A DNA stretch of 24,633 nt from a virus: the IMG/VR virus record IMGVR_UViG_3300036985_004253, positions 1 through 24,633 of that record, one strand, 5' to 3'. The position numbers and the translations under genes were made by a program. Every line of letters starts with the position of its first letter. The stretch's first letter is position 1. The notes beneath the pieces are model-generated. The model saw only the letters and a list, made by a program, of their open reading frames with translations, made no database searches and was not told where the DNA came from. Below are positions 3,533 through 23,466 of the stretch, one piece after another.

Positions 3533-5275
3533 TTACGCAGGCTTGATCACGATGCCCACGCGAGGGTCGCCCTGAGCACTGCCCCACATGACGCACACGC
3601 GCTGGCTGATGCTCATCTTGCCGTTGTCGGCGTAGCTGAACACCATCACGGTCAATCCGCTGTCAGGCTCAGTTACGAGACGGACGCTGGCGGTTGAAGG
3701 GATGCCGAGCTGAGTCAGCGTGGTCGTCCAGTCCTGCGGAGGACGGCTGACGAACAGGAAGCTGCTCATGTTGCCCGCGAAGCCCGTCATGGCCGTAGTG
3801 CCCAACGTAGCATCGTCAGTCCAAGTGGTCAACGCACCGGCTGCGGTAGCGGAGGCCAATTGGCTTTCGAGCGGCTTGACACCGAACAGCGACGGCACTT
3901 CACCAGACTCGAAGCTGGAGACGTCCTTGTTGATCAAAGCGAGAATCGCCTTGGCCGACAGAAGGTTGGAGTCTTCCAGGAGCTTGTCGTGGTAGAAGCT
4001 GTGCAGCAACACGAAGCGACCGACGTCCGGGATTTTGCTGATCGTCATTGCATTCTTCACGCCAATCATGCCAGTCAAGTTCCAGTTCGCAAGCGACTTG
4101 ATGTAGCTCGTCTTGATGCCCGTCCAAGTGGCGGCGAAGATGCCCGCCAACACGTTGGTGTTGATTTCCTGCGCGAGGCTGTAGGTCTGCGCGCCGTATT
4201 GTTCCGCGAACAGGTTGCGGATGGTGCCGCCGAGCAAGCTCACAGGGAACTCGACTTCGGTCGCCTTGAACATGTTCATCGTGACGGATTTGTCCGTGGT
4301 GGACGGAACGCTCTTCTTCGGGTGGCCGAAGATGTTCGTCGCGTCCAACGCTTGCGCGCCTGCCCCCTCAGTGGACAGCGGGAGACCGCCGGACTGAGTG
4401 GTGCCAGTGCCAGAATCGCTGATCTGGTTGGCTTGTGACGTGAATCCAACGCCAGGCACCCAGGTGAGCACGTCAGGCGGAGTGATATAGCGCGTCAGGA
4501 TGGCCTGACCGAACTTCGCAGGCTCGCCGGAGAAGTCCGTCGTGAGCTTGCCGAGCCACGGCAACTTGTACTTCAAGAAGCCAAGGTTGCGCATGAGGAT
4601 CAAATCCCCAGCCAACGCACCGACTTGCGCGTTCGGGTCGCTGAATGTCGCAGCGCGAATCGTGTTCGGGTCGAACCGGGTTGCGCCTTTGACGCTGTCC
4701 GTCATGAGCAGATCGCTCGCCTTCATGTGATGCTTGGCCAGGATGACAGCAGCCTCTTTGGACTGCTTGGCGGCTTCGCCCCATTGGTTGGAGCGGCACA
4801 GTTCGTTCTGGTGCTCCATCGCTTTGATGTAGCCGTTGGTCGCGTCCTTGATGTCAACGCCGGTGGACTCATACGTGGTGAACGGGATGCCACCGTTCAT
4901 GTCCTGCTGGAACCGCGTGGTGCGATTGCTGGCTTGCACGGCAGCTTTGCCGGGCAGACCGTCAATGAACGCCAACACAAACTCGGGGTCAGCCCCTTGT
5001 TCCAACTGCTTGACCGCTGTGGCGGTGACCTTCTCAACCGTGTTCTCGCCGTCACCTTTGGGGATGATGGCTTCGCGTTCGACTGCGCGGTTCACTGCGC
5101 TGACGACCAGCCCCTTGGCTTGGCTGCGGACACGCTCATTGGCGGCGTGTTCCGACGCGGTGATGTATTCGTGCCCGGCTTCGGCAAGAACGTCCAGCTC
5201 AGACCCTGAAAGGTCTAACGCTGCGCCCGCTCTGATCTTGCTGTCCTGCGGGACTCTTGTGATAACGATCTTCAC
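3533..5275 (-). CDS. Major capsid protein (HK97-fold expected)
   Basis: I take the GTG at 5275 as start (VKIVITRVPQDS...). It is preceded by AAAGGAAC at good spacing, and the longer in-frame start at 5332 would add about 19 very basic residues with no ribosome site. The resulting 580-residue protein lies directly after the prohead protease gene, where Mu-like phages keep the capsid gene. Residues about 25-130 are helical and charged, as expected for a scaffold-like delta region that could be removed by the protease. The rest has mixed alpha/beta composition with many Thr, Gly and Pro, for example TRYITPPDVLTW and TSYIKSLANWNLTGMIG, ending GIVIKPA. No other gene here is a better capsid candidate. 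The HK97 fold is inferred from context. The hairpin leader upstream and stem downstream suggest high and separately tuned expression. Confidence 0.8.
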   Translation of the reverse strand: MKIVITRVPQDSKIRAGAALDLSGSELDVLAEAGHEYITASEHAANERVRSQAKGLVVSAVNRAVEREAIIPKGDGENTVEKVTATAVKQLEQGADPEFVLAFIDGLPGKAAVQASNRTTRFQQDMNGGIPFTTYESTGVDIKDATNGYIKAMEHQNELCRSNQWGEAAKQSKEAAVILAKHHMKASDLLMTDSVKGATRFDPNTIRAATFSDPNAQVGALAGDLILMRNLGFLKYKLPWLGKLTTDFSGEPAKFGQAILTRYITPPDVLTWVPGVGFTSQANQISDSGTGTTQSGGLPLSTEGAGAQALDATNIFGHPKKSVPSTTDKSVTMNMFKATEVEFPVSLLGGTIRNLFAEQYGAQTYSLAQEINTNVLAGIFAATWTGIKTSYIKSLANWNLTGMIGVKNAMTISKIPDVGRFVLLHSFYHDKLLEDSNLLSAKAILALINKDVSSFESGEVPSLFGVKPLESQLASATAAGALTTWTDDATLGTTAMTGFAGNMSSFLFVSRPPQDWTTTLTQLGIPSTASVRLVTEPDSGLTVMVFSYADNGKMSISQRVCVMWGSAQGDPRVGIVIKPA

Positions 5276-5282
5276 TTTTGTT

Positions 5283-5337
5283 CCTTTGTTTGTTTGTTTA
5301 CCGTCCCGCTTTTCAAGCGGTTTCGCCCGCACGGGCG
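5283..5337 (-). promoter_or_regulatory. Capsid gene leader: two small hairpins and ribosome binding site
   Basis: Between the protease-scaffold stop and the capsid GTG lie two perfect small stems. One is at 5324-5337 (CGCCC/GGGCG around a four-base loop). The other is at 5306-5320 (six pairs around a three-base loop). An unstructured stretch of repeated AAAC units follows, then AAAGGAAC, which fits a ribosome site about six bases before the GTG at 5275. Such a leader can raise mRNA stability and keep the start region single-stranded. No clear promoter boxes were seen in it. Confidence 0.4.
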
Positions 5338-5354
5338 TAAATTGTTTTAATCAT
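5313..5354 (-). CDS. 13-codon mini-ORF between protease-scaffold and capsid genes (doubtful)
   Basis: An ATG at 5352-5354 overlaps the end of the long protease-scaffold gene in another frame and gives MIKTIYARAGETA before a TGA. The peptide repeats the IYARAET element found inside the long protein at about residue 1006, and a 16-base DNA repeat lies under it. It may be a remnant of one more repeat unit lost by frameshift, or a coupling peptide that carries ribosomes toward the capsid start. Translation is not shown. Confidence 0.25.
   Translation of the reverse strand: MIKTIYARAGETA
5329..5344. repeat. 16-base direct repeat, second copy at 5840-5855
   Basis: GCACGGGCGTAAATTG occurs at 5329-5344 and again at 5840-5855, 511 bases apart. 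Both copies encode the IYARA element on the minus strand: one in the long protease-scaffold protein, one in the 13-codon frame just after it. The identical DNA suggests a fairly recent tandem duplication of a module of about 500 bases, whose later copy was truncated or slipped out of frame. Confidence 0.7.
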
Positions 5355-8300
5355 CGGAGCCGTGTTTGTAACTGTAGTCTCTGCTTGCTTTTCTCCAATC
5401 AATTTCAGAAGTTGAGGAAGATTTCCCGGTCTGCTCCTTTTTGAGACGCGCCTGCTTGAATTGATTTGCACTTTCTTTTCCGTGAGCTTCTCCAATTCCG
5501 CTGTGCTTGTGATAAAGGTCTTCATTCCCTGCTGCGAGGTGTTTGCCGGACGCTTTATTGTGAGCGATGTTGGCTTCGTTGTGCGTTGCCCTTCCGGAAC
5601 CGTCTGACGCCTTTTCTCCAACGGAGTACGCTTCCTTTGATGCCTGATGAGCTTCAAAACCTTTCATGTCTCCAGACCTTGCAGCCTCATGAGACATCGC
5701 ATCGTGATGGAGCACCATCTTCTCTGTTTCGTCTGGATTTGGAATTGAAGCCACAGATGGAGCTGCTCCCGATTTCGCCATCCTCGCTTCGAACGCAGCC
5801 CTTCGAGATTCAGGACTCCAAGTAGCCGACACCGTCTCAGCACGGGCGTAAATTGAATTGAGGATATCGTCAACCGACTTATCGCTTGTCTGAATTGGGC
5901 CTCCCGCCGCCCCGGCTTTCAGTAAATACCTTGTCTTGTTGATGGCCTTTTCCATATCGGCTACTAAGTTATTCAAGTCCTCGCGGTCACCCCGCATCCC
6001 CGTGACGATCCTCTCGCCGGCATCGAGAACCGCCGCCGGGTCATTGGGGTCGCAGTCGCAAGATTCGGGAGTTACCTTTTCGGGTTTCTTGCCCATGCTT
6101 GACTCAACATACTCGTCAACCAAGCCGTCAAGTGTTTCGTAAAGCTTGCCTAAGGCTTCATGGTCGTTAGTCTGAGTCGGCGCGTTCCAGTGGGCGGCTC
6201 GCAAGCTGCCGAGCAGGCCGAGAAGCTTTCCGCAATGAGCTTTTACTACGTTAGTTGAATGACCGGAGCTAGCGTAAATCTTGTTCAAAATGTCCTGTGG
6301 TGTGGCGTCGGCGGCGAACGTCTTTCCGCCGCCCTTGTCGCCGCGTTCAATCTTTCTTCCGTGCTCGGCGATAGCAGCGTGCGGCACGTGGCCGTACATT
6401 GCACCGCCCCCGGTAGCTGCGAAGTGCGCCCGGCCACCGTCGTCGTGGTGGACGTTCCAGTGCTCGCCGGTTTCGTCCTTGAATGAGTGCGACTCGCCCG
6501 GCTTCAAAGCTGCGACCTTTGCAACGTCTTCGTGCTGAAGAATCGCCGACTTGCTGCTTCCTCCCTTTCCGAACTCAACCTTGCCGACATAAGCGTCGTG
6601 CGAGTAAGCGTGAGCTTGGTTGCGCCTCGCTTCCAAAGCGGCTTTCCGAGCTGAGTCACTCCATGCAGCCGACACCGCGCACTTGGAGTAAACGTCGTCC
6701 AAGGTTGTCCGGGCTACGCCGTGCTCTGTTGCGATGGCGTTGGCCTGCTCAAGCACCGAGGCTTGGCGGGCGAGAATGGTGTCGGGGGTGGTGGTGTCGG
6801 AGGCTCTTGTATTCATCCACTCGTCTTGGCCTTGATTCCCAAAATCGTCATTGGATGATTTGCTTTCGTTGTGCAAGCCTTTGTGCACTGACTCAAGTTT
6901 TTGATGAGCCTTCATAGCCGCTGCATGCTTTTCAGGATTCCCAATGTTGTGCTTGATGAGTCGCTTGTGATGGTCGGCGGCATCTCTGTGCCGAACCGAT
7001 GCTGTAAAGTGATTTCCTTTTTCAGCAAAGTTTGCGGCATAGTCAGCGTGAACATCAGCACCAGCACCCTTTTTCAGTTCGCTCGAATCAAAAGGCTTTG
7101 CGTACGGAGTGCCGGCCATTGCATCCTTGCTCAATGCGTGAGCTTTTCTTGATTCAATGGCGGCCTTCCGTGCTGCATCAGACCACACAGCTGTCACCGT
7201 GTCCGATGAAGTGGAACCCGTCACCTTGTCGTAAATCTCTTCCAGCGAAGCCTTGGCAGCCGGGTTGCGCTGCTTGCGAATCTCCTCAACTGCTCTGGTG
7301 TGCGAGCCGCCGTCCTTAAGGCACTTCTCGTAACACGCGACTTCGGCGGGTGTGGCGTCGGGCACGTCTTGTTTGAGGGTTTCAGCGCAGTGGGCGTTGA
7401 TGGTGGATGATGAGGTGGCGTCTCGCTTGAACGAGCCAAATACGGAAGCCGCTTGCCCCATGTTGCGATGCGATTCAGCGGCGTGCTTGTGATAGTTCTC
7501 AAAGTCCTCGTGGTCTTCAGAATAACTTTCGTGCCCCTTCATTTCAGCGTGTGAAGCGCGAGCCTTGTCATGGGCCGCGGCTGCGTGTTCGTGCGCTTCT
7601 GGGGTGTCTTTGTGCATTGCCGTGAAGTGCTCTCTGTCAGCAAGCGTCGTCAAGTTGCTGGCGTGCCGCTTGCGCGACTCCCAGCTTTTTGCAACCCCTT
7701 CGCTGGTGCCAGCCGCCTTCACCGCATCGCTCGCCTTCACCGGACTCATTGAGTGAAACGCCGGTTTGTTAGTGAGCGTCCCTACGCAGAAATCTACTCC
7801 CGTGATCTGCGCCGGGTTGCTCCGGCTGCCGCGTGCGCCTTCCGGGAACATCAACACGCCACCACATTCCGTCGCTTTGCTGTAGTCTGCGTCTGTGGTG
7901 AACGATGGCGACCAGCTGCGGTGAACACGCCCGTTGACGTTATTCGCTCCTAGAGTCGTAGGCTCGGCGGCCAGATACACGCCGTCGTCGTTCCACTTGA
8001 ACCCGCAGGAAGCTCCGACCCGGAAGCTGGCTTCTTGCTCTTTGTGTTCAATGCAGCCGAACGGCTCTTGCTTGGGGCGTTCCTCGCGCCAGTTTTCCAG
8101 CGAAGCCTGAACAGCGGCAGCGGTGTTCTCGTCGCAGTTGACGGTCAACTCAATTGAGCCTTTGCGGAAGCCTGCGCAAATGGTTGAGGTGCCAGCAGGC
8201 ATCCACATGAACTCAACTTGCTCGCCGGGTGACCACGGCTTGTCGGCGGCCAGAACCGAGCCAGCGGCAGAGTGGGAGCGGCAGTGGATGACTTCGGTAG

Positions 8301-8868
8301 AGGTGGCGTCAGAGGCTTTGGCTTTATCGCCTGATTCTTCAGCGTGTTCGAGTAGGCATTTTTCGTGAACGGCTTGAAGTTTTTCGTTTCCTTTTGCTTC
8401 TTCCATTGAGGCTAAGTGTTCAAGTCCAGCTTTGTGGTGGTCGTCTGATTTTCCCGTCTTCCAAGCCTTAACGCTAGCGAGATGCGCCCGCTTTCCGGTC
8501 AGGCTTTCAGTTTGCGCCATTTCGCTCAAATGGAAGCCGCGCCGCTCTACCCACCCCTTCTTCGCCCCTTCGCTCGTGCCAGCCGCCCGGACTACGTCGC
8601 TGGATTCGGTGGAGGTGGCTTTGTTCGCGCCGGATTGCTTGTCGTGAAACTCGGCCATTGAAATATGATGTTCAGATTTCTCTGCATGGCTGTCAGACCT
8701 TGCTCCGCTCGTGCTGATTGACAGCTCAGAATGGTGGTCTGCTGCAATTCCATGAAGGTCGGCTGCTGCTTTGTGGTCCGACGCCAAACCGGATGACTTC
8801 GCCTTCTTGCTTGCTGCGGCTGCGGCTCGTGCTGCGTCGCTCCAGGCTGCTTGAATTGTTTCGCTCAT
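5347..8868 (-). CDS. Prohead protease (Mu gpI-like) inside a long repeat-rich scaffold-type mosaic protein
   Basis: The protein has 1173 residues from an ATG at 8868, four bases after the preceding stop; an in-frame start at 8892 lies inside the upstream gene. Residues about 207-377 match the Mu gpI protease-scaffold pattern: FMWMPAGTSTI, then EH at 274-275 (likely catalytic His), then SWSPSF near 318-323 (likely catalytic Ser), ending VGTLTNKPAF. AAGTSEG elements flank the domain (residues about 95 and 385). A WS..AR.AA..SR/EAR unit recurs near residues 8, 560, 734 and 1015, each followed by His-rich helical segments. Residues about 872-987 look ferritin-like (LRAAHWNAP...LYETLDGLVDEYVE), as in the phage DUF5856 family. 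Mu gpI has about 360 residues, so this one is very long. It probably self-cleaves and trims the capsid protein; the roles of the extra units are unknown. Confidence 0.85.
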   Translation of the reverse strand: MSETIQAAWSDAARAAAAASKKAKSSGLASDHKAAADLHGIAADHHSELSISTSGARSDSHAEKSEHHISMAEFHDKQSGANKATSTESSDVVRAAGTSEGAKKGWVERRGFHLSEMAQTESLTGKRAHLASVKAWKTGKSDDHHKAGLEHLASMEEAKGNEKLQAVHEKCLLEHAEESGDKAKASDATSTEVIHCRSHSAAGSVLAADKPWSPGEQVEFMWMPAGTSTICAGFRKGSIELTVNCDENTAAAVQASLENWREERPKQEPFGCIEHKEQEASFRVGASCGFKWNDDGVYLAAEPTTLGANNVNGRVHRSWSPSFTTDADYSKATECGGVLMFPEGARGSRSNPAQITGVDFCVGTLTNKPAFHSMSPVKASDAVKAAGTSEGVAKSWESRKRHASNLTTLADREHFTAMHKDTPEAHEHAAAAHDKARASHAEMKGHESYSEDHEDFENYHKHAAESHRNMGQAASVFGSFKRDATSSSTINAHCAETLKQDVPDATPAEVACYEKCLKDGGSHTRAVEEIRKQRNPAAKASLEEIYDKVTGSTSSDTVTAVWSDAARKAAIESRKAHALSKDAMAGTPYAKPFDSSELKKGAGADVHADYAANFAEKGNHFTASVRHRDAADHHKRLIKHNIGNPEKHAAAMKAHQKLESVHKGLHNESKSSNDDFGNQGQDEWMNTRASDTTTPDTILARQASVLEQANAIATEHGVARTTLDDVYSKCAVSAAWSDSARKAALEARRNQAHAYSHDAYVGKVEFGKGGSSKSAILQHEDVAKVAALKPGESHSFKDETGEHWNVHHDDGGRAHFAATGGGAMYGHVPHAAIAEHGRKIERGDKGGGKTFAADATPQDILNKIYASSGHSTNVVKAHCGKLLGLLGSLRAAHWNAPTQTNDHEALGKLYETLDGLVDEYVESSMGKKPEKVTPESCDCDPNDPAAVLDAGERIVTGMRGDREDLNNLVADMEKAINKTRYLLKAGAAGGPIQTSDKSVDDILNSIYARAETVSATWSPESRRAAFEARMAKSGAAPSVASIPNPDETEKMVLHHDAMSHEAARSGDMKGFEAHQASKEAYSVGEKASDGSGRATHNEANIAHNKASGKHLAAGNEDLYHKHSGIGEAHGKESANQFKQARLKKEQTGKSSSTSEIDWRKASRDYSYKHGSDD

Positions 8869-8872
8869 AATC

Positions 8873-9151
8873 TTATTTCGCTCCGAAGCCACTTTGTTTC
8901 TGCGCCGGGATGAAAAACGACGCCCCGCCGCGTGGCTGTTCTTGCTTGATTGCGCTGACGATCTCTTGTGATTGAGTTACGCCCACGGGTTGTTCTGCGA
9001 CCGAACTCTCTTCGGGCGTCACGGTCTCCGCCGTGTCTGTGGGCGATGGCACTTCTGGTGCGCTCACCTCCGTGGGCGTGCCCGCTGGCGCAACGCTGAC
9101 CGAAGTCGCGGTTGGCTCATTGCGGGAAAATGTTTTGTTCTTTTTGCTCAT
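8873..9151 (-). CDS. Small disordered Pro/Thr/Val-rich protein (92 aa), unknown
   Basis: The ATG at 9151 is one base after the stop of the preceding gene, which favours it over a TTG five codons upstream. The protein starts MSKKNKTFSRNEPTATS, continues with a low-complexity stretch rich in Pro, Thr, Val, Ser and Glu, and ends in GGASFFIPAQKQSGFGAK. It looks mostly unstructured. Position immediately before the protease-scaffold gene suggests an assembly helper or minor head component. No family is recognised. Confidence 0.7.
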   Translation of the reverse strand: MSKKNKTFSRNEPTATSVSVAPAGTPTEVSAPEVPSPTDTAETVTPEESSVAEQPVGVTQSQEIVSAIKQEQPRGGASFFIPAQKQSGFGAK

Positions 9152-10412: not shown

Positions 10413-11903
10413 TTAGACGAAATATCCAATGAAAGTAACGCCGCCACGAATCGCGCCTGAGCTTGTGGAAGTTCCGATTGCGCGGATGATGCAGTGCAGG
10501 ATTTCGCCGGGATTCACCGGGATAGGCGCGTTTGAAAAGTCGCGTTGAAAACCCGCAACCACAGTTCCAGCGGCAGCCGTGGCAGCGAAGCCTTGAACGC
10601 CTAGCGGATACTTGCGCGAAATCTTGGTTGTGCCAGTGGCAAACGAGGCCGATTCAGTAGTTGCCAAGGTTGCGGCAGTGCTGCCGAATCCGATTGCGTA
10701 ACAGATGGCAATCGGGCCTCCGGCTAACACCGTTGCGACTAAAGCCTCGGAAACGATAATGCCAGTGCACATGAAGATTTTTCCGGGCGCGAGGATTGTC
10801 GCCGCCGGGTTAGACCACGCAAACAAAGGATAGTCAGACTCGCCAGCGGTGATTGCCGCAGGAAGCAGGAACAAGCCGCCAAGCGTATTCGTTGCGGGTG
10901 CAGTGCTGGCTGTCAGCGTGACAGCACTTGGAGCAGCACCTAGAGCGTAAGTCGAAAGCTGCCCAACAGATGCAGTGCCGCCGTTTTGGATTTGCAATGA
11001 GCCGCCCTGACGAGCCGCCAGGGTCTGAACCGGGTATTGTGGCAAATCACCTAGCTGGACGCTGTAATCGTAAAAGCGAAGCGAGAACGCAGCACTGGCC
11101 GCCGTGCCGCCGATGGCGTGACGTATCTGCATCGGCAAGCTACTCGATTGAAACGGTTGACCAACGCCAACGGGAGTTGTGGTCGTCGCATACAGGACAT
11201 CATCAATCCAGAACTCGACTTTGCGCTCCGTGATGGCGATTACAAATTGATAAACCTGATTGATTGTCGGAGAGAAAGGCGTGACTCCATCTGTGGTAAA
11301 TGCGCTTGTGAGCGTTTCTGATCCGTTATTGACCACGCCAAAGACACCAGCCGATGTGATTCGGAAATAAACACCGTCCGCAGGCACATAGGGCGACGTG
11401 TCCGGGCCGGTTGTGATGAACATCCCAAAATCAACAGTGCTATTAGTGGCACGCGCAGCCGTGATAGCGGCTGAAAACTCGACTGTCAGCGGAGTCTGTT
11501 GACCCAGCAAAGAGAATGTCTGCCACGAACGGAAAGCCGCAGCGGTGTTGATCGTGGTGATGCCGCCATTGTTCGTCTGAAGGCTGCCAGAGTTCTGCGA
11601 CATCGTGAGCGTCGTGAACACATAGCGATAGCGTCCGGTGTTCTGAGATGTGTAGCTGAATGTGTCCGAATCAAGCAACACGTCTTGCCCGACGCGCAAG
11701 CGGTAGTCGCCAGACACCTCGGGCGACAGCAATGAAGCCACGCCAGTGACTGCGCCGGGGTCGCTCTCGCTGAACAATCGCACCGCGCCTACGTTGCCGG
11801 GATTGCTTGCGACGTTCGTTTCACCGACAACCTTTAGCTGGTTCGATGAATTGACCTCGGCGACATTGCCGCTCGTATTGCCTTCTAATCTTATTCCTGC
11901 CAT
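10413..11903 (-). CDS. Large structural protein (496 aa) with probable lectin-like beta-sandwich
   Basis: The protein is Thr/Ser/Gly/Ala-rich and almost free of charge clusters, as in virion surface proteins. Residues about 80-285 have the rhythm of a concanavalin/LamG-like jelly roll, with FTTLTMSQNSGSLQTNNG, PLTVEFSAAI, VYFRITSAGVFGVV and RKVEFWIDDVLYATTT as successive strands. The C-terminal 190 residues form a second beta-rich domain ending GGVTFIGYFV, an ending I associate with conserved phage structural proteins. Lying between portal and capsid genes, it is more likely a head-surface or vertex protein (decoration or fibre) than a tail-fibre protein; glycan binding is possible. No precise family. 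Confidence 0.75.
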   Translation of the reverse strand: MAGIRLEGNTSGNVAEVNSSNQLKVVGETNVASNPGNVGAVRLFSESDPGAVTGVASLLSPEVSGDYRLRVGQDVLLDSDTFSYTSQNTGRYRYVFTTLTMSQNSGSLQTNNGGITTINTAAAFRSWQTFSLLGQQTPLTVEFSAAITAARATNSTVDFGMFITTGPDTSPYVPADGVYFRITSAGVFGVVNNGSETLTSAFTTDGVTPFSPTINQVYQFVIAITERKVEFWIDDVLYATTTTPVGVGQPFQSSSLPMQIRHAIGGTAASAAFSLRFYDYSVQLGDLPQYPVQTLAARQGGSLQIQNGGTASVGQLSTYALGAAPSAVTLTASTAPATNTLGGLFLLPAAITAGESDYPLFAWSNPAATILAPGKIFMCTGIIVSEALVATVLAGGPIAICYAIGFGSTAATLATTESASFATGTTKISRKYPLGVQGFAATAAAGTVVAGFQRDFSNAPIPVNPGEILHCIIRAIGTSTSSGAIRGGVTFIGYFV

Positions 11904-15334: not shown

Positions 15335-15507
15335 TTTTTTCCTTTATCAATTTCAGCCATCTTGGCCTCAATTGCTTTTAGAGTGACCGACTCGAAAGGT
15401 TTTCGGTCTTCGTATTTTCGGCTGCCCGGGACACCTTTTAAGACTGGATCTTTGAACCCGCTAGCCGTTGCTCTCGGTGCATATTTACTTCTTTTTGGTT
15501 TATTCAT
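15331..15507 (-). CDS. Small basic protein (58 aa), unknown
   Basis: The ATG at 15507 overlaps the end of the large terminase gene by eight bases and opens MNKPKRSKYAPRATASG; a start 17 codons further upstream would lie deep inside the terminase gene. The protein is basic and hydrophilic with a C-terminal helix (VTLKAIEAKMAEIDKGKK). It is probably cytoplasmic and made by coupled translation with terminase. No family is recognised. Confidence 0.65.
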   Translation of the reverse strand: MNKPKRSKYAPRATASGFKDPVLKGVPGSRKYEDRKPFESVTLKAIEAKMAEIDKGKK

Positions 15508-16948
15508 AATTCTCGTCAGTTGCGTCAATGTTACTATTGTAAACGTCAATCGCCTCACCCGCTAGCCGCTGGTAGCCCGTTGTAGCCACTTGAATGTCTT
15601 GCCCGCTCCAAGCTCCCGTCGGGACTCGCAACGCTTCTAATGCCCCAGCGGCGGCGTCGGCTTGGTCGTTCTTTTCGTCCTCGCCTTTGCAGCCTTCAAG
15701 CTCGTCAACGAAATCCTGGTTCCACTTCCCTTTCACGATGAACACCCGTCCGTGTTCCGCAGCAGCGGAAAGCGGCGACCAGCGGAGCAGTTTCTTCTTT
15801 GAGCTTGGAACGCCGCTGAAGTCGTAACCAACGAGGACATTGCGGGCGTAGTGGCCTTCGTCGCCGCTCAAGCTCTTGCCGCTTGCTCCGCCTTCCTGCT
15901 CCATTCTGACCATAACCGATGGCCCATCAAGTGCGGCTGTCGCTTTGATTGTCTGCTCGTTCGTCAGTGGCGACCCCTGGAAGTGGACGCAATCAGCGAT
16001 ATAGATGTTGCCGCCAACTTCGCCCAGCTTGACTCCCGCCGTCCAGTCGGGGTCTTTCCCAGGAGCAGGGGCAGTGGCTGCCAAATCCCAATAGCGGCAC
16101 CAATTGAAGATTCCGGGCGGTGGCTGGTCAACAAACTTCCACCACTCGCGCTTGAAGATGTTGCCAGCGACGGCGATCTTCCAGTTCCCGCCGAGCAACC
16201 TCTCACGGTCAACCATCGGCAACGCCATCAGGTTCGCGAGGTATCCAGGGTCTTTCCGCATGAGCACCTGATTGTCATCCAGCTTGCTGAGGATGAACGT
16301 CAGGCTCTTTGGTTCGCTCTCTGGGTGCTTGGCCTTGGCTTCGAACTTTGTATTGAACCAACGCAGCCCGTCACCGATGCGGACAAACCAGCGGACTTTG
16401 CCGCTTCTCTCAGGAATGGCGTAACCGGTTTCTTCATCCCACCACCAACTGATCAGCTTGGCCAACCATCCGGGCTGTGGATTGCAGCTTGCCCGGATGT
16501 AGGGGCGAACACCGCACGTTGAGCGGCTGCGGCTGAGGAGGTAGAAGAATTGTTTCTCTGTGAAGGACTCAAGTTGATCAAACTCAATCAGCGGTATCTG
16601 TGCGCCGTCATAATCGTAACGGCTCTGCTCGTTCTCCATGCTGCGGAATTGAACAGTGCTGCCGCTTGGGAACGTCCACCGCAATGCGCCTTTGGTTCCG
16701 GTTGCTCCAGCGTAAGGGTAGATGGCTTCGCTTTCATCCCACAGCCCGCCTTCGAGAGTGATCTGGGGGTATGTCCGACGGAACACGATCGCGCCGAAGT
16801 TTGGATTGCCGATATGATAGAGCGGTTCGTAGAGCAAGCTCCAAGTCTTCCCACCTCCCGCCGCTCCGCCAAAGATCGTGATGTCGGCGGTGCTTTTCAG
16901 GAATTGTTCCTGCTTGGCTTGTGGCGTGAACTTTACCTCTTCGCTCAA
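15500..16948 (-). CDS. terL: Terminase large subunit (packaging ATPase-nuclease)
   Basis: The large subunit pumps DNA into the prohead and cuts the concatemer. The 482-residue protein has Walker A GGAAGGGKT at 27-35, an adenine-side segment FRRTYPQI, Walker B PLIEFDQ at 119-125 and the coupling segment SRSRSTCG at 140-146. The nuclease half begins RYWDLAAT at 285-292 (first acidic residue D288), continues with DPDWTAG near 299-305 and has a late acidic group in KNDQADAAAGALEAL. The usual catalytic Glu after the Walker B Asp is Gln here (FDQ, not FDE), which is odd for an active motor. The ATG overlaps the small-subunit stop (ATGA). The family call is secure. Confidence 0.95.
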   Translation of the reverse strand: MSEEVKFTPQAKQEQFLKSTADITIFGGAAGGGKTWSLLYEPLYHIGNPNFGAIVFRRTYPQITLEGGLWDESEAIYPYAGATGTKGALRWTFPSGSTVQFRSMENEQSRYDYDGAQIPLIEFDQLESFTEKQFFYLLSRSRSTCGVRPYIRASCNPQPGWLAKLISWWWDEETGYAIPERSGKVRWFVRIGDGLRWFNTKFEAKAKHPESEPKSLTFILSKLDDNQVLMRKDPGYLANLMALPMVDRERLLGGNWKIAVAGNIFKREWWKFVDQPPPGIFNWCRYWDLAATAPAPGKDPDWTAGVKLGEVGGNIYIADCVHFQGSPLTNEQTIKATAALDGPSVMVRMEQEGGASGKSLSGDEGHYARNVLVGYDFSGVPSSKKKLLRWSPLSAAAEHGRVFIVKGKWNQDFVDELEGCKGEDEKNDQADAAAGALEALRVPTGAWSGQDIQVATTGYQRLAGEAIDVYNSNIDATDENYE

Positions 16949-17535
16949 TGCCCTGCCTTTCCATTCCCGTTCGGCAGCCCGTTGCTCAGGTGCTTGGCGT
17001 GGCCGTTGCTGGTGACGTCTATGATCGTGTCAGTCAGCTCTTCCTTCCGGGGCTGGATGAACACCACTGTCGGAGCAATCACCGTCGTGCCGGCCACTGG
17101 GTTTCCATCCGCATCGCTGACCCTGACCGAATCACGCCGGGCGAACTGTTCCGGGTTACGTCGCTCCAGTGCCCATGCATCTGCCTGCCAGCTGCCTTTC
17201 ACTCCTGCCTTTTCTATCCTCGCCATCCGGCGTGCAATTCCTAACGCTTCGCCCTTTTCTATGGCTTTTCTGAATTTTTCCTCCAGTTTGCCGTCTCGGC
17301 TTTTCCAAATGCTTATCGTTGTAGCATTTACGTTCAGAATAGTAGCAATCTGACGCTGTGTCATGCCTTGCGCTGCGAGCTGCTCCGTTCTCTTGATAAA
17401 CTTCGGCGTTAGAAGTGATCCTCTTCCACCGCGACCGCCTCTCACCTTATTCCGGCGCTCGCGAGTATCCTTCGGCTTCCCTGGAAGAGGACCTTTTGGC
17501 TTCTTTTGGTTGGTTGATGGCTCGCTGCTGCTCAA
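16945..17535 (-). CDS. terS: Terminase small subunit (HTH DNA-binding)
   Basis: The small subunit recognises phage DNA to start packaging. The 196-residue protein has a basic, Gly/Arg-rich N-terminus (about residues 11-40) and a helix-turn-helix at about 49-80 with AAQGMTQRQIATILNVNATT. A conserved segment WALERRNPEQFARRD follows near 120-135, common in small terminase proteins. The start is a TTG at 17535: AGAAAGG lies nine bases before it, an in-frame stop lies a few codons upstream, and no ATG precedes the HTH. It overlaps the large-subunit gene by four bases. Role by family and position. Confidence 0.85.
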   Translation of the reverse strand: MSSSEPSTNQKKPKGPLPGKPKDTRERRNKVRGGRGGRGSLLTPKFIKRTEQLAAQGMTQRQIATILNVNATTISIWKSRDGKLEEKFRKAIEKGEALGIARRMARIEKAGVKGSWQADAWALERRNPEQFARRDSVRVSDADGNPVAGTTVIAPTVVFIQPRKEELTDTIIDVTSNGHAKHLSNGLPNGNGKAGH

Positions 17536-19030: not shown

Positions 19031-20119
19031 TTAGGCTAGCCGCATTGGTGAAACGATGTAAAGGAACGGCCCTTCGTTTTTGATCACGAGCGGGCTTATC
19101 TCGTCGTTGATCTCCAAAGAAACGTCCTTATCGGAAAGAGCGTTCAAGGCGTCGGTGATGTATTTAGGGTTGAAAGCGATTGAAAAGTCTTTCTCTTTGT
19201 ATTTCAGCTCCATGCTCTCCGTCGCATCGCCAACCTCTGGAGAGTTTGAAGTTATGGTCAGGAGGTTGTTCGTGAATACAAGCTTCACAGACTGCCACTT
19301 TTCGCTCGTCATGATTGACACCCGCCGCAAGGCTCCAGAGAACTCTTCTCGAGGAACAGAGATTTTCATGCTATAGCTTTTTGGGATGATCTGATTGATG
19401 TCCGGGTATGCTCCTTCGATCAACTTTGTGTAAACTGAAACGTTCCCGATGGTGAACTTTGCAGAATTATCTCCAAACTCCGCAATCGCTTTTCCTTCAT
19501 CTCCAAGAAGTCGGCAAATGACCATCGCCGCTTTAGATGGAATGATAATTTTCACCCGCTCGGATATTTCACCGTCGACGCTGTTCAAAGCCAAGCGCCT
19601 GCCGTCCGCCGCAACGGCTTTGATCAGTTTTCCATCCGCTTCAATCATTGTCCCGCAAAGAACATATCGAGACGCTTCTTCAGACATGGCAAACATCACT
19701 TGACTGAAGACTTTTTTGATTGCGGACTGATCTACTGAAACCTTTTTCGGATTGACAATAGCTTGGAACAGTGGGAACTCAGACGATGCGATTCCTCTGA
19801 GGTTATACTTCGACGGCCCGCTTTTGATGCAGCAGACATTGTTTTCGTCAACCTCGATCTTCACGTCGTCTCCGATGATCTCCCTTGAAGCAGCTGAAAG
19901 CCGGAACTCTGAAACTGTTACGGAGCCTTCTTTCTCCACCGCGGCTGGAACCTCGCAAGAGACCATCAAGTCCAGATTCGTAGCTGTTATTTTCAAGCTG
20001 CTTCCAGACGCTTGAATGAGAAGGTTCGCCAGAACAGGCATGGCCGTCTTGCTTGCGACCACGCCGTCAACTGCCTGGATTGCCTTTAGGAGGTTTTCTT
20101 TTTTGATTGTTGTTTTCAT
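19031..20119 (-). CDS. dnaN: DNA polymerase III beta subunit (sliding clamp)
   Basis: The clamp is a ring dimer that holds the replicative polymerase on DNA. The 362-residue protein has the full bacterial length and pattern: KENLLKAIQAVDGVVASKTAMPVLANLLI at the N-terminus, ATNLDLMVSCEVPA near residue 45-60, VSEFRLSAASREI, then EFPLF. The C-terminus IVSPMRLA is the peptide-binding pocket ending of DnaN (usually MPMRL). All three repeats seem present. The start is an ATG ten bases after the preceding stop, without a strong ribosome site. A phage-coded complete clamp suggests its own polymerase or redirection of the host replisome; no polymerase is in this window. Confidence 0.95.
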   Translation of the reverse strand: MKTTIKKENLLKAIQAVDGVVASKTAMPVLANLLIQASGSSLKITATNLDLMVSCEVPAAVEKEGSVTVSEFRLSAASREIIGDDVKIEVDENNVCCIKSGPSKYNLRGIASSEFPLFQAIVNPKKVSVDQSAIKKVFSQVMFAMSEEASRYVLCGTMIEADGKLIKAVAADGRRLALNSVDGEISERVKIIIPSKAAMVICRLLGDEGKAIAEFGDNSAKFTIGNVSVYTKLIEGAYPDINQIIPKSYSMKISVPREEFSGALRRVSIMTSEKWQSVKLVFTNNLLTITSNSPEVGDATESMELKYKEKDFSIAFNPKYITDALNALSDKDVSLEINDEISPLVIKNEGPFLYIVSPMRLA

Positions 20120-20129
20120 TTGAATTTTT

Positions 20130-20363
20130 CTACATTAGAACCATTTGATTGTTGCTTCCTGCACCGTTAGCAAGCTGAGCGAAGCTCCACAGTCTCGCCG
20201 TTGATTTCTTACTTCGCTTCTTTCTTACAAGCAGCCCTTTTTCTGTCATTTCAAAAACGAACATTTTTGACTTCACATCCTTCGAATCGGCCACGACCGA
20301 AACGCTTGCGACGATACGGCCGCGAACTCTCTTAGCCCACTGGTCGCGAGGCTTTGTGATCAT
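20130..20363 (-). CDS. Small basic protein (77 aa), unknown
   Basis: The ATG at 20363 overlaps the stop of the mutase-like gene (ATGA). The protein is basic with a short beta-rich centre (RIVASVSVVADSKDVKSKMF, then FEMTEKGLLVRKKRSKKST) and a C-terminal helix (WSFAQLANGAG). It could bind nucleic acid judging from charge alone. It is the last gene of the tight chain that starts at 23466 and is followed by the clamp gene. No family. Confidence 0.65.
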   Translation of the reverse strand: MITKPRDQWAKRVRGRIVASVSVVADSKDVKSKMFVFEMTEKGLLVRKKRSKKSTARLWSFAQLANGAGSNNQMVLM

Positions 20364-21127
20364 TTTAATCCCAGGGAAGATTTCATGCTTTCATAATCTG
20401 TCATTGCCATTTTGTGAATATCTTGCCAGATAGTTTCATTGCGCTCGAAGTTAGGCGCTTCATCATTGAGATTCTTCCAGACATTGCTCTGGCGAGAATG
20501 CCTTACAAGTGGTCCGTTGAGGTTGAAGCACTTCCCTTCAGAGTACGCTTTTTTCTGCCAGAGAAATCCTTGCCAAATATCGTCGAACCGAGGAACGTCT
20601 ATGAACTTACACCACGGGAACTCGCTCACCCGAAACGCCAAGTTCATCCCGCACAGTGGAAAATGCTTTCCGTACATCGCTTTGCGGCTGAACTCCATCG
20701 GCTTGGTTGCTCCGTGAACAAGCTGCCCTGGAGCGTCATAGTCTCCGATGTGAGACCAGAAGCCCATGGAAGCAGCGACCGGCATCGCGATCGTCCTGTT
20801 GAAATACGGAGTCCCTCTGCTTGGAGGACTTGTCACGCACTCAAACATATCAACGTGCTGATCTTTTAAGGCGCTTTCGTGGTCCGCCATGAACTGTTCT
20901 ATGGATTGACCTTCATGAGGAAAGCAATCGTCGTCTAGGACGATAATGCTGTCGGCTCCAGTGTGGATTGCAGCTTGGATTCCCCTGTTCTTTGTTACCG
21001 CGCACCCTTCGCGAGCAGTGTCGAGTTGAAAAACAAACCTTGTGTCAAGGTCGCTGACATTCCAAGCTTTGAGGAAAGCTTTAATTTGGTCGTGGTTGTA
21101 CCACGGAACTACTATCTTTGTGATCAT
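20360..21127 (-). CDS. Reversibly glycosylated polypeptide / UDP-arabinopyranose mutase-like enzyme
   Basis: The 255-residue protein resembles plant RGP/UAM proteins, which convert UDP-arabinopyranose to UDP-arabinofuranose and glycosylate themselves on arginine. Visible matches in order are IVVPW at the N-terminus, CAVTKNRGIQAA, LDDDCFP with DDD at 65-67, SRGTPYFNR with Arg104 and Arg111, GFWSHIGDYDAPGQLVH near 122-138, CGMNLAF at 159-165, RFDDIWQGF at 180-188 and RHSRQSNVWKNLNDE near 209-223. Plant enzymes have the same two arginines seven residues apart. At 255 residues it is shorter than the plant proteins of about 350. The ATG at 21127 overlaps the stop of the glycosyltransferase gene (ATGA), so the two are made together. 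Fold and family are well supported; the substrate is inferred. Confidence 0.8.
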   Translation of the reverse strand: MITKIVVPWYNHDQIKAFLKAWNVSDLDTRFVFQLDTAREGCAVTKNRGIQAAIHTGADSIIVLDDDCFPHEGQSIEQFMADHESALKDQHVDMFECVTSPPSRGTPYFNRTIAMPVAASMGFWSHIGDYDAPGQLVHGATKPMEFSRKAMYGKHFPLCGMNLAFRVSEFPWCKFIDVPRFDDIWQGFLWQKKAYSEGKCFNLNGPLVRHSRQSNVWKNLNDEAPNFERNETIWQDIHKMAMTDYESMKSSLGLK

Positions 21128-21999
21128 ACTTTTCTGTGTTCTTCTCTGATGATTTTGGCCGCGCATCGCGCCCAGTTAATGTTGTGATGAAGTCTTCGGT
21201 GAGACTTTCCTATAAGTATTGAAACCTTTACAAACGACGGGTTGAGCATAACTGACAGGAACGATTTCACGTGAGTGCCGTATTGCTTATAGATCGCCGT
21301 CATGCCTCCGGTCGTTTGCGTCACCGGCTGCTGGAGGCGATACTGCATGAGGTTGATCATGAAATAGCCTTTGATTTGGAGTGAAGTATAGGCATTGACG
21401 TCTTCGTTCATGCAGCCGACGAATCGAATTCTCCGGTCTACAGAACAAAGCCAGCTGTTCATCGCTTTTCTCAGGCATCCAAAGTTCCACCGGCACTCCG
21501 GATTCTGCTTCGCCGGACCGCCAATGAAGTCTCCACCTTGCGCGAATGTAACCGCCAGGCAGTTCTCAGGAGTTGATTCAAAGAACCTCAGCATGTTATC
21601 AACGACCTTGTCGTATGATTGGATTTTGTTTACCAACTTGGTCGGCACATATTCCATCTTCGCATCGAAGGCAAAGTAGAAGCCGGTGTAGTCGTCGTCA
21701 AACTGTTGGAAGTATTTCAGCCCGAGGTTCTCCGCAATGTCGAAGCAGGCGTTGCGAGCGAACATAATGACTTTGGTTATGGCCAACCCCATTCTGTCCG
21801 ACTTCTCAACGTAGTCACTCTTCTTGAAGATCACACACTTGTCTCCAAACTTCTCTTTGTATTTGTCAGCCGTCGGGTCGTCGTCACCGACCACGATGAA
21901 CCACTTCCCAGTGTAGTTGCTTTTGATAAGGCTGTTCAACGTCTTCACGTTGTCAGGCCGGCCGTAAGACATGATCAAGATTGCAAAATCTTCTCTCAT
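21124..21999 (-). CDS. TAGT-like (TET-associated) glycosyltransferase
   Basis: The TAGT family was defined by its genes lying next to TET/JBP dioxygenase genes in phages, and it is thought to add sugars to hydroxymethylated bases. The 291-residue protein shows the family layout: FAILIMSYGRPDNVKTL, then GKWFIVVGDDDPTADKYKEKFGDKC near 31-55, MFARNACFDIAENLGLKYF near 79-97, DDDYTGF with DDD at 101-103, FAQGGDFIGG at 152-160 and the acidic group MNEDVNAYTSLQIKGYFM at 197-214. The DDD is the expected metal/nucleotide-sugar site. It overlaps neighbours on both sides by four bases. No TET or base methyltransferase gene is in this window. Glycosylation of a protein or surface sugar remains possible. 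Confidence 0.75.
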   Translation of the reverse strand: MREDFAILIMSYGRPDNVKTLNSLIKSNYTGKWFIVVGDDDPTADKYKEKFGDKCVIFKKSDYVEKSDRMGLAITKVIMFARNACFDIAENLGLKYFQQFDDDYTGFYFAFDAKMEYVPTKLVNKIQSYDKVVDNMLRFFESTPENCLAVTFAQGGDFIGGPAKQNPECRWNFGCLRKAMNSWLCSVDRRIRFVGCMNEDVNAYTSLQIKGYFMINLMQYRLQQPVTQTTGGMTAIYKQYGTHVKSFLSVMLNPSFVKVSILIGKSHRRLHHNINWARCAAKIIREEHRKV

Positions 22000-22394
22000 G
22001 GGTGCTCGCTTGTGTAGTGGGCGGTGATGTCTTCGCTCATTCTTACAAATCCAAGTTCGACGGCCTTGTTGAAGTCTACAATCACAAGGCCGGATTCCTC
22101 CATCAGCCTTTGAACCTGAGGACTTGCATGCGAATAGTAGTCAGCGATCAAGTCGAAGTTGAATCCATTGTGGCGCTGAGCCGCCATGATCAAAAATTCT
22201 TTTTCGGGCTGGCTTGCGTTCGACTTTTCAATGGCGAGCTCAAGTTCCAAGGTTTTGTTTCTGTCAACAAGTTCTACCAAGTGCGGCTTGCGCTTTGATG
22301 GTTCGTAAATGAGGTTTTTGGCGGTCGTCTTGCTGTAGATCGTTTCAGGAGCAGCAAGCCTCTGATCGTCTATGAAAAGTGATGCTTGTTTCAT
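21996..22394 (-). CDS. Conserved-looking phage protein (132 aa), unknown, in the glycosyltransferase operon
   Basis: The ATG at 22394 and the stop both overlap neighbours (ATGA). The N-terminus is polar (MKQASLFIDDQRL). The C-terminal half, AAQRHNGFNFDLIADYYSHA followed by PQVQRLMEESGLVIVDFNKA and VELGFVRMSED, has a pattern I recall from phage proteins near DNA-modification genes, some fused to ParB-like or methyltransferase domains. I cannot name the function. Its place directly before the glycosyltransferase pair suggests a part in the same modification pathway. Confidence 0.75.
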   Translation of the reverse strand: MKQASLFIDDQRLAAPETIYSKTTAKNLIYEPSKRKPHLVELVDRNKTLELELAIEKSNASQPEKEFLIMAAQRHNGFNFDLIADYYSHASPQVQRLMEESGLVIVDFNKAVELGFVRMSEDITAHYTSEHP

Positions 22395-23236
22395 TTTTTC
22401 AATTCTTCGATTTGCTGCTTGGTGAGAACTGCCCCAACCATTTTTCCACTCTTGCCAAGTCGGATGTTTTGACGGGCAGTAGCTTCGGAGATTTCGAGGC
22501 CGCTCTTTGTGATAAATGCTGCGAACTGCTCGTATGTTACTCCAGCCGCTCCAGCTGTCATTGCGACTCGGCAGATAGAGCTTCCAAAAAGAGCGTTTGA
22601 CCTCGAAGGCTTGGCTGACTTTTCCGCCTTGCTTGCGACAGGAGCGTCGGCGCGAGTTTTGAATACTTCCTGTTCTGATTTTTTTGATTTGTCTGTTTTT
22701 GTTTTCACGGTTTCGATGTGTGGTGTTTCTGTTTCGTCGCTGGTTTCGGTCTCCGGCAGCGGCGACTTGCGCTGCGAGAGAAAGTGAACTAGATTTTCAG
22801 CCCGCTCTTTTTCGTTAAGGCGGACGAGCTGGTGACAGACACAGTCTCTGAAGAAGAACTCGCTGAGCCAGCGGTCGTCCTGCCAGACGTTGCCGTCCAG
22901 ATCGCCAAGGACGCAACCGTCAGCAGTGACTTGGAACACGGTGCAGAACCCTCCTTCGTAGCAGAGCATGTCGCCGCACTCGGCTTTTATCTTGTCCTTG
23001 TGCTTGCCGCTTTTGGCTTCGGCCTGCTCTGCAAGAAAGTCGGCCACCCCGGCTTCGCCACGCCGCTCGAACAAACGGTCACGGCTGATGTCAACGTTGA
23101 TGCCGTTGTCAAGCGCGTGCGGGCGTCGCCCTTTGAACTCCGTCACCGGCTTGATGTTTGCCCGGTCGCCCTTGATTGACATGACGATGACCAGACCGCC
23201 GTCAATCTGTACTACGTCGCCGATTTGCGCATTCAT
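22391..23236 (-). CDS. Unknown 281-aa protein with Cys-rich middle and winged-helix-like C-terminus
   Basis: The ATG at 23236 overlaps the preceding stop and has GGAGG seven bases upstream, the best ribosome site in the window; a longer start at 23266 lies inside the upstream gene. The N-terminus is a beta-like KOW/SH3-style segment (IGDVVQIDGGLVIVMSIKG). Residues about 85-150 hold several cysteines (CGDMLCYEGGFC, FFFRDCVCHQLVR). A charged linker follows, then a compact C-terminal domain (ICRVAMTAGAAGVTYEQFAA... ATARQNIRLGK) that may be a winged helix. No family is recognised. The strong ribosome site suggests it sets expression of the downstream chain. Confidence 0.75.
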   Translation of the reverse strand: MNAQIGDVVQIDGGLVIVMSIKGDRANIKPVTEFKGRRPHALDNGINVDISRDRLFERRGEAGVADFLAEQAEAKSGKHKDKIKAECGDMLCYEGGFCTVFQVTADGCVLGDLDGNVWQDDRWLSEFFFRDCVCHQLVRLNEKERAENLVHFLSQRKSPLPETETSDETETPHIETVKTKTDKSKKSEQEVFKTRADAPVASKAEKSAKPSRSNALFGSSICRVAMTAGAAGVTYEQFAAFITKSGLEISEATARQNIRLGKSGKMVGAVLTKQQIEELKK

Positions 23237-23466
23237 TTCGTTTCCTCCAGTTTTGGGCCAGTCCAAGTTAGGACGTGCCCAGCCTCCTCAACCAGCCCGC
23301 AGTTCTTGAGCGTCTGGATGATCTTTTCGTAAGTTGCGAAATCCATGTGAGGCATGACGTTCGCGTAAAATGTTCCGCTCGGAACGCTGCCGAGCTGGCG
23401 GATGGCGTCAGCGAAGACGCGCACGGTGTCCAGCGCGGCTTTGACTTGTTCTTTGGTTGCTGTCAT
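23233..23466 (-). CDS. Small winged-helix-like protein (77 aa), unknown
   Basis: I take the ATG at 23466 (MTATKEQVKAALDTVR...); the longer frame to 23616 runs through an Arg-rich, unlikely N-terminus and a strong hairpin. The protein has two helices, a short turn (LGSVPSGTFYANVMPHMDFA) and a beta-hairpin-like end (GLVEEAGHVLTWTGPKL), a layout typical of small winged-helix proteins. It is the first gene of the overlapping chain that includes both glycosyltransferase-fold enzymes. A regulatory role is only a guess. Confidence 0.7.
   Translation of the reverse strand: MTATKEQVKAALDTVRVFADAIRQLGSVPSGTFYANVMPHMDFATYEKIIQTLKNCGLVEEAGHVLTWTGPKLEETK

Follow-up and report, generated by a model that had tools for sequence, protein, structure and literature searches.

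A conserved ParB-like/TAGT glycosyltransferase module joined by a GT75 gene in uncultured phages: a candidate phage glycosylation cassette

Two overlapping genes with glycosyltransferase folds in an uncultured phage raise the question of which sugar their products handle and to what that sugar is attached. The genes lie in a 24,633-nucleotide stretch (24.6 kb, hereafter the window), a fragment of virus record IMGVR_UViG_3300036985_004253. A preliminary description had read them as a two-gene cassette, co-translated through an ATGA overlap in an operon near the sliding clamp gene, that would put arabinofuranose or a related sugar on the bases of phage DNA. Both open reading frames are present on the minus strand with the ATGA at 21124-21127, and the clamp gene (dnaN) is located nearby at 19031-20119. 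The features referred to below, in the direction of transcription, are these:

22391 to 23266, minus strand: 291-aa gene, ATGA-coupled to the 132-aa partner gene
21996 to 22394, minus strand: 132-aa partner, a stand-alone C-terminal 'YAHA' domain (C-terminal part of phrog_620, E 8e-7; alignments)
21124 to 21999, minus strand: TAGT, 291 aa (PF20691, phrog_842, AlphaFold2 model)
21691 to 21699, minus strand: TAGT residues 101-103 (DDD motif), unchanged across 35 aligned homologues
20360 to 21127, minus strand: RGP-like protein, 255 aa from the ATG at 21127 (PF03214, PDB profile matches, AlphaFold2 model)
20927 to 20935, minus strand: DDD metal motif of RGP, residues 65-67, of which D65 and D67 are the same in all 42 viral homologues
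20816 to 20818, minus strand: Arg104 of RGP, aligned to R159 of MtdL and invariant in the 42 homologues
20130 to 20363, minus strand: 77-aa gene, ATGA-coupled to RGP and kept in L002 only
19031 to 20119, minus strand: DnaN sliding clamp (Pfam profile search)
16945 to 17535, minus strand: terminase small subunit, downstream of the cassette
15500 to 16948, minus strand: terminase large subunit, downstream of the cassette

The transcription order is thus 291-aa gene, 132-aa partner, TAGT, RGP, 77-aa gene and dnaN, with the genes for the terminase subunits, the portal and the major capsid protein further downstream in the window. On the coding strand, bases 21124-21127 are ATGA, the stop codon of TAGT overlapping the start codon of RGP. 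A longer RGP reading frame with a start at 21166 was rejected, as it begins inside TAGT and is not needed. The junction is one of four successive ATGA overlaps (22391-22394, 21996-21999, 21124-21127 and 20360-20363), and because it recurs at the other three positions, five consecutive genes are coupled and not two. The 291-aa gene at 22391-23266 has no match to a Pfam or PHROG family, and a homologue occupies the equivalent site in the closest relative (L002). The 77-aa gene is probably outside the general module, while dnaN is absent beside the cassette in L002, and relatives do not have it at this position. In the head-gene region, between the genes for the portal and the major head protein, the minus strand at 5350-8892 encodes an 1181-aa protein with a DUF5856/Dps-like domain towards the C-terminal end (PF19174, E 3e-8; phrog_858, E 4e-9).

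Profile matches and a structure model show the predicted product of 21124-21999 to be a TAGT-family glycosyltransferase. TET association gave this family its name and is not a catalytic feature; the paper that named it is reportedly that of Iyer et al. in 2013. The match to PF20691 covers the entire profile (1-205 of 205) at E 6e-26 and 92.1 bits, against a cut-off of 27.5, and phrog_842 is matched at E 8e-58. The best PDB folds for the AlphaFold2 model (pLDDT 85) are GT-A enzymes, and the modelled GT-A fold carries a DxD motif. Rows from annotated phage records were left out of the AlphaFold2 input alignments. In IMG/VR, single-sequence scans returned one relative for the TAGT query and none for the RGP query, and alignment queries were required. 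Two TAGT subfamilies were found among the loci in which TAGT is paired with RGP, both of them true members of PF20691.

The TAGT of phage T6, beta-glucosyl-HMC-alpha-glucosyltransferase, adds a second glucose to glucosyl-hmC (PMC13216743; PMC13390438) and has PF20691, the GT-A fold and the DDD motif region in common with the TAGT of the window. However, it belongs to a different subfamily: an HMM of the window subfamily gave no significant match to it (0.012 against a single target), and an HMM of the second subfamily recognised it weakly. Since the subfamily HMMs barely recognise the T6 protein, transfer of its function to the window TAGT is a lead and not a test. The T6 enzyme also acts beside a dCMP hydroxymethylase and an alpha-GT, and within the stretch of T6 that was read it has neither an RGP nor a ParB-like partner. 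There is also nothing to indicate that the phage of the window is related to the T-even phages.

The predicted product of 20360-21127 is likewise shown, by profile searches and a model, to be a member of the GT75 (RGP/UAM/MtdL) family. It matches PF03214 at E 1.1e-7 and 31.9 bits against a cut-off of 23.8 (profile positions 92-277 of 342), and its homologue in L002 scores 37.9 bits; both family assignments first made for this gene pair are thus borne out above the curated cut-offs. A profile of 42 viral RGP homologues, searched against all PDB sequences, found the bacterial NDP-pyranose mutase MtdL (E 2.4e-23) and the rice UDP-arabinopyranose mutase OsUAM2 (E 2.6e-18) and nothing besides these within the set limit. 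The AlphaFold2 model is very confident (mean pLDDT 96.6), and its top seven Foldseek matches are six MtdL chains and OsUAM2 (2e-11 for MtdL and 2e-10 for OsUAM2), with the next fold following at 1e-5. These matches make the protein a candidate NDP-pyranose mutase or autoglycosylating glycosyltransferase.

With the plant UAM/RGP proteins (OsUAM1, AtRGP) and MtdL, the RGP of the window has in common the family, the predicted fold, the DDD motif and the autoglycosylated arginine, Arg104 being the counterpart of Arg158 in OsUAM1 and Arg159 in MtdL (PMC9937993). Mutation of D109, D111, R159, D195, R257, D260 or H287 in MtdL kills activity or weakens substrate binding (PMC9937993), and in the profile alignment these residues correspond to D65, D67, R104, D129, R180, D183 and H210, which are invariant in the 42 viral homologues. 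Asp87, essential in MtdL for mutase activity, is not conserved in the window subfamily, where Cys or another residue takes its place; the equivalent region reads GCAxTKNxG, with C42 in 31 of the 42 viral sequences. The proposed likeness to the plant enzyme that makes UDP-arabinofuranose therefore holds for family, predicted fold and most catalytic residues, but not for the Asp87 equivalent. Judged from these residues, mutase activity is likely but not assured, and because the catalytic Asp87 of MtdL is Cys in the window subfamily, both this activity and an arabinofuranose product are unproven. Characterised GT75 enzymes are 347-376 aa long, whereas the window protein, at 255 aa, is about 100 aa shorter, and its sugar need not be arabinose. 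Pro8, at a site that is Pro in the plant enzymes and Thr13 in MtdL, would be compatible with a UDP-sugar.

The loss of the Asp87 equivalent would also fit an RGP that is a second glycosyltransferase and not a mutase, so that a disaccharide or branched sugar would be built from ordinary pyranose donors. Some plant RGPs show no mutase activity and do not autoglycosylate (PMC9937993), and second or tandem TAGTs are present in L002, L040, L041 and L042, as if sugars were added in turn. We consider this possible but rather doubtful, as every other catalytic residue that was mapped is invariant, the autoglycosylated Arg among them, and the best structural matches are mutases, which rank about five orders of magnitude above ordinary glycosyltransferases.

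Pairing of TAGT with RGP recurs in other phages. Eighty viral RGP loci were examined in IMG/VR, the 39 closest having 48-72 percent identity and the other 41 being more distant. In 26 of the 39 closest loci a TAGT on the same strand as RGP was no more than 4 kb away, in most cases directly adjoining it; in the 41 more distant loci no TAGT was near RGP. After removal of loci with RGPs at least 90 percent identical, 18 non-redundant TAGT-RGP loci remained, including the window, and in these the pair is nearly always behind a ParB-like gene. The pairing is confirmed as more than chance. Of the two-gene cassette originally proposed, the functional link stands, with order and coupling kept across many phages, but an obligate upstream partner had been missed. 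The RGPs paired with the first TAGT subfamily form one supported clade (98/95), and those paired with the second fall in another supported group, which suggests that the link between RGP and TAGT is old or has arisen twice. In the papers searched, no phage GT75 gene is described with a TAGT; the ParB-TAGT pairing may already be mentioned by Iyer et al. 2013, and possibly also in a 2025 preprint on glycosylated 5-hydroxycytosine.

Several other genes were observed around these loci. L002 carries a tandem TAGT duplicate before RGP (6360-8083) and, about 2 kb downstream, genes for TylF and Methyltransf_24 sugar-type methyltransferases (10663-11873). A sulfotransferase gene (PF03567) is located just downstream of RGP and a second TAGT in L042 (3175-3879), with related proteins in L043 and L044, and suggests a sulfated glycan there. 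A family of about 290-330 aa without a Pfam match is encoded between TAGT and RGP in L031 (9011-9997) and L040 (9114-9983), and L031 also encodes a protein with ParB-like and PAPS-reductase domains (5034-6356) close to its ParB-TAGT pair and RGP. In a 595 kb uncultured phage (LR756511; L010), a distant RGP with the plant-type DSA motif is found in a cluster of sulfotransferase-, methyltransferase- and glycosyltransferase-like genes adjoining likely structural genes, as judged by reading of the open reading frames. The closest cellular RGP found, with 54 percent identity, is from Gemmatimonadales (L173); it was rejected as a prophage copy, since the surrounding open reading frames, by reading, resemble surface-polysaccharide genes and include no TAGT.

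In most phages the gene upstream of TAGT encodes a ParB-like protein with an N-terminal ParB_N domain (PF02195) and a C-terminal domain that we label 'YAHA' after its sequence. The window, L002 and Vibrio phages some 195 kb in size have the YAHA domain on its own; ParB_N is absent from the 132-aa partner of the window and from L002, but present in most relatives. The YAHA domain has no Pfam family, and Pfam and PDB searches gave weak, unconvincing matches. By tblastn it was found in 28 of 50,697 phage records, always beside TAGT, and all 28 are among the 33 phage records that carry a TAGT of the window type. Of the remaining five, three have a remote TAGT (24-25 percent identity) and two are copies of the LL-Ku record, in which TAGT is at the very start of the record. 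When metagenomic and phage loci were combined, the YAHA/ParB protein was directly upstream of TAGT in 79 of 86; the seven exceptions are accounted for by contig ends, an inserted gene, duplicated TAGTs and an over-extended reading frame start in NTR1, where the annotation gives the same overlap of partner and TAGT. TAGTs of the second subfamily are preceded by a different ParB_N protein.

In all 11 partners tested, from both TAGT subfamilies, the ParB part was matched by the N-terminal end of a type II DNA methyltransferase profile (E 7e-14 to 3e-42). Phage fusions of ParB with a methyltransferase have been described (PMC12704722), and the ParB N-terminal module is common to these and the TAGT partners. 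In contrast to the fusions, the effector here is a separate glycosyltransferase, and the C-terminal domain of the partner is a distinct one without a Pfam family. The stronger finding of this analysis is that the conserved module consists of the YAHA/ParB-like partner and TAGT, and that a group of uncultured phages has RGP/GT75 as an addition to it.

The ParB-TAGT pair was found in viruses of E. coli, Salmonella, Lactobacillus, Nocardia, Vibrio and Haloarcula, usually immediately upstream of the terminase genes in annotated phages and in most of the sampled metagenomic loci. No RGP was found in the tested phage records of these groups. In E. coli the pair corresponds to ynaK-ydaY of the Rac prophage, downstream of trkG, and was matched in 1,575 of 5,426 complete genomes, in 887 of them over at least 80 percent of its length. 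The E. coli prophage TAGT is 43 percent identical to that of the window over its full length. In MG1655 (1425377-1425980; L220), ynaK and ydaY are short remnants of the pair, which many other E. coli strains carry at full length. In strain ECCHD184, ynaK is annotated as incomplete and the TAGT is intact. The Rac pair differs from the window in having no RGP and in that ynaK keeps ParB_N, whereas the partner in the window is the C-terminal domain only.

So common a pair in E. coli prophages could be a moron that modifies a host target such as a surface glycan, RNA or a defence factor, and the setting of the Gemmatimonadales RGP among genes that resemble, by reading, a surface-polysaccharide cluster points in the same direction. 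This explanation is improbable, however: no flippase or other gtr-type membrane gene was seen beside the pair in annotated phages, the pair adjoins late packaging genes and is also present in Haloarcula virus HHTV-2, and TAGT, RGP and the partner of the window match no PADLOC defence family.

A gene that prepares the base for glycosylation had been expected to lie outside the window. Pfam searches weaken this expectation, as none of Tet_JBP, DNA_methylase (C5) and Thymidylat_synt was found in the complete genomes of HHTV-2, phi jlb1, c5 and Nocardia NTR1, nor in the 24.6 kb window or L002. Across 50 records, some of them fragments, Tet_JBP was found in none; the control, Mycobacterium phage Nigel, was detected at 4e-8, and the DNA_methylase and Thymidylat_synt searches were positive in control genomes. 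A C5-methylase is present in three records that have RGP in other contexts. PF00303 is absent from the window, L002 and the complete ParB-TAGT phages; one Vibrio phage has a thymidylate-synthase-like gene, which was rejected as a hydroxymethylase because its motif, by eye, reads as that of an ordinary thymidylate synthase. With no TET, C5-methylase or thymidylate-synthase-family gene found, a base hydroxyl for the glycosyltransferase thus has no known source. The RB69/NP arabinosylation pathway has in common with the window the idea of a pentose on phage DNA. RB69-type phages encode a thymidylate-synthase-family 5-hydroxy-dCMP synthase, a sugar-modifying gene cluster and putative arabinosyltransferases (PMC13390438), whereas none of these was seen in the window. 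The arabinosyl-hydroxymethylcytosine earlier invoked for RB69 is outdated, since the arabinose sits on 5-hydroxycytosine (PMC13390438).

The absence of a base-hydroxylating gene from complete relatives counts in favour of the main rival explanation, in which TAGT and RGP build a small glycan, sometimes methylated or sulfated, on capsid or tail proteins and the partner is a scaffold that docks TAGT. The location of the cassette directly upstream of the terminase, portal and head genes would suit such a role, as would TylF/Methyltransf_24 in L002, Sulfotransfer_2 beside RGP in L042, and the distant RGP of the 595 kb phage among sulfotransferase-, methyltransferase- and glycosyltransferase-like genes near probable structural genes. 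Glycosylation of virion proteins is a less probable but serious alternative, given that the obligate partner is ParB-like, with a ParB part common to DNA methyltransferases, and that the sole functionally assigned TAGT works on DNA (PMC13216743).

The explanation that we tentatively prefer, at little short of an even chance, is a phage glycosylation cassette in which the GT75 protein supplies a sugar, TAGT transfers it to DNA, and the partner recruits or activates TAGT. We infer the following steps. The GT75 protein would bind a host NDP-sugar, form the usual arginine-linked sugar intermediate, and release an NDP-furanose or pass the sugar on. TAGT would then transfer the sugar to phage DNA, with the ParB-like/YAHA partner bringing it to the DNA or activating it, shortly before packaging. 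DNA is plausible as the acceptor by analogy with the T6 TAGT, which acts on DNA, and by the resemblance of the partner's ParB part to that of DNA methyltransferases. In the related complete genomes, such a cassette would do without any known base-hydroxylating enzyme. Against this explanation stand the complete ParB-TAGT genomes without Tet_JBP, C5-methylase or thymidylate-synthase genes, as well as the lost Asp87 equivalent, the short RGP and the missing ParB_N in the partner of the window. Genes for sulfotransferases and TylF-like methyltransferases close to some relatives are equally compatible with other glycans, and arabinofuranose on DNA bases would be one possibility among several. A bolder form of the DNA explanation, which we think unlikely though worth stating, is a widespread and previously unnamed ParB/YAHA-directed DNA glycosylation without TET or hydroxymethylase, in which GT75, recruited in the group of the window, would give a furanosyl sugar and hence a new hypermodified base.

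A 2026 survey found that 288 of 753 phage genomes with glycosyltransferases carry a TAGT yet lack both alpha- and beta-GT, and proposed novel transferases for these TAGT-only genomes (PMC13216743). TAGT with its ParB-like partner is among the commonest uncharacterised phage glycosyltransferase modules and extends to the Rac prophage of E. coli K-12. If DNA is the target, the absence of known hydroxylases would mean new base-modification chemistry. The partner domain and the recurrent GT75 gene provide handles on this module: both the acceptor (DNA or virion) and the sugar (furanose) can be tested, and E. coli offers a laboratory model.
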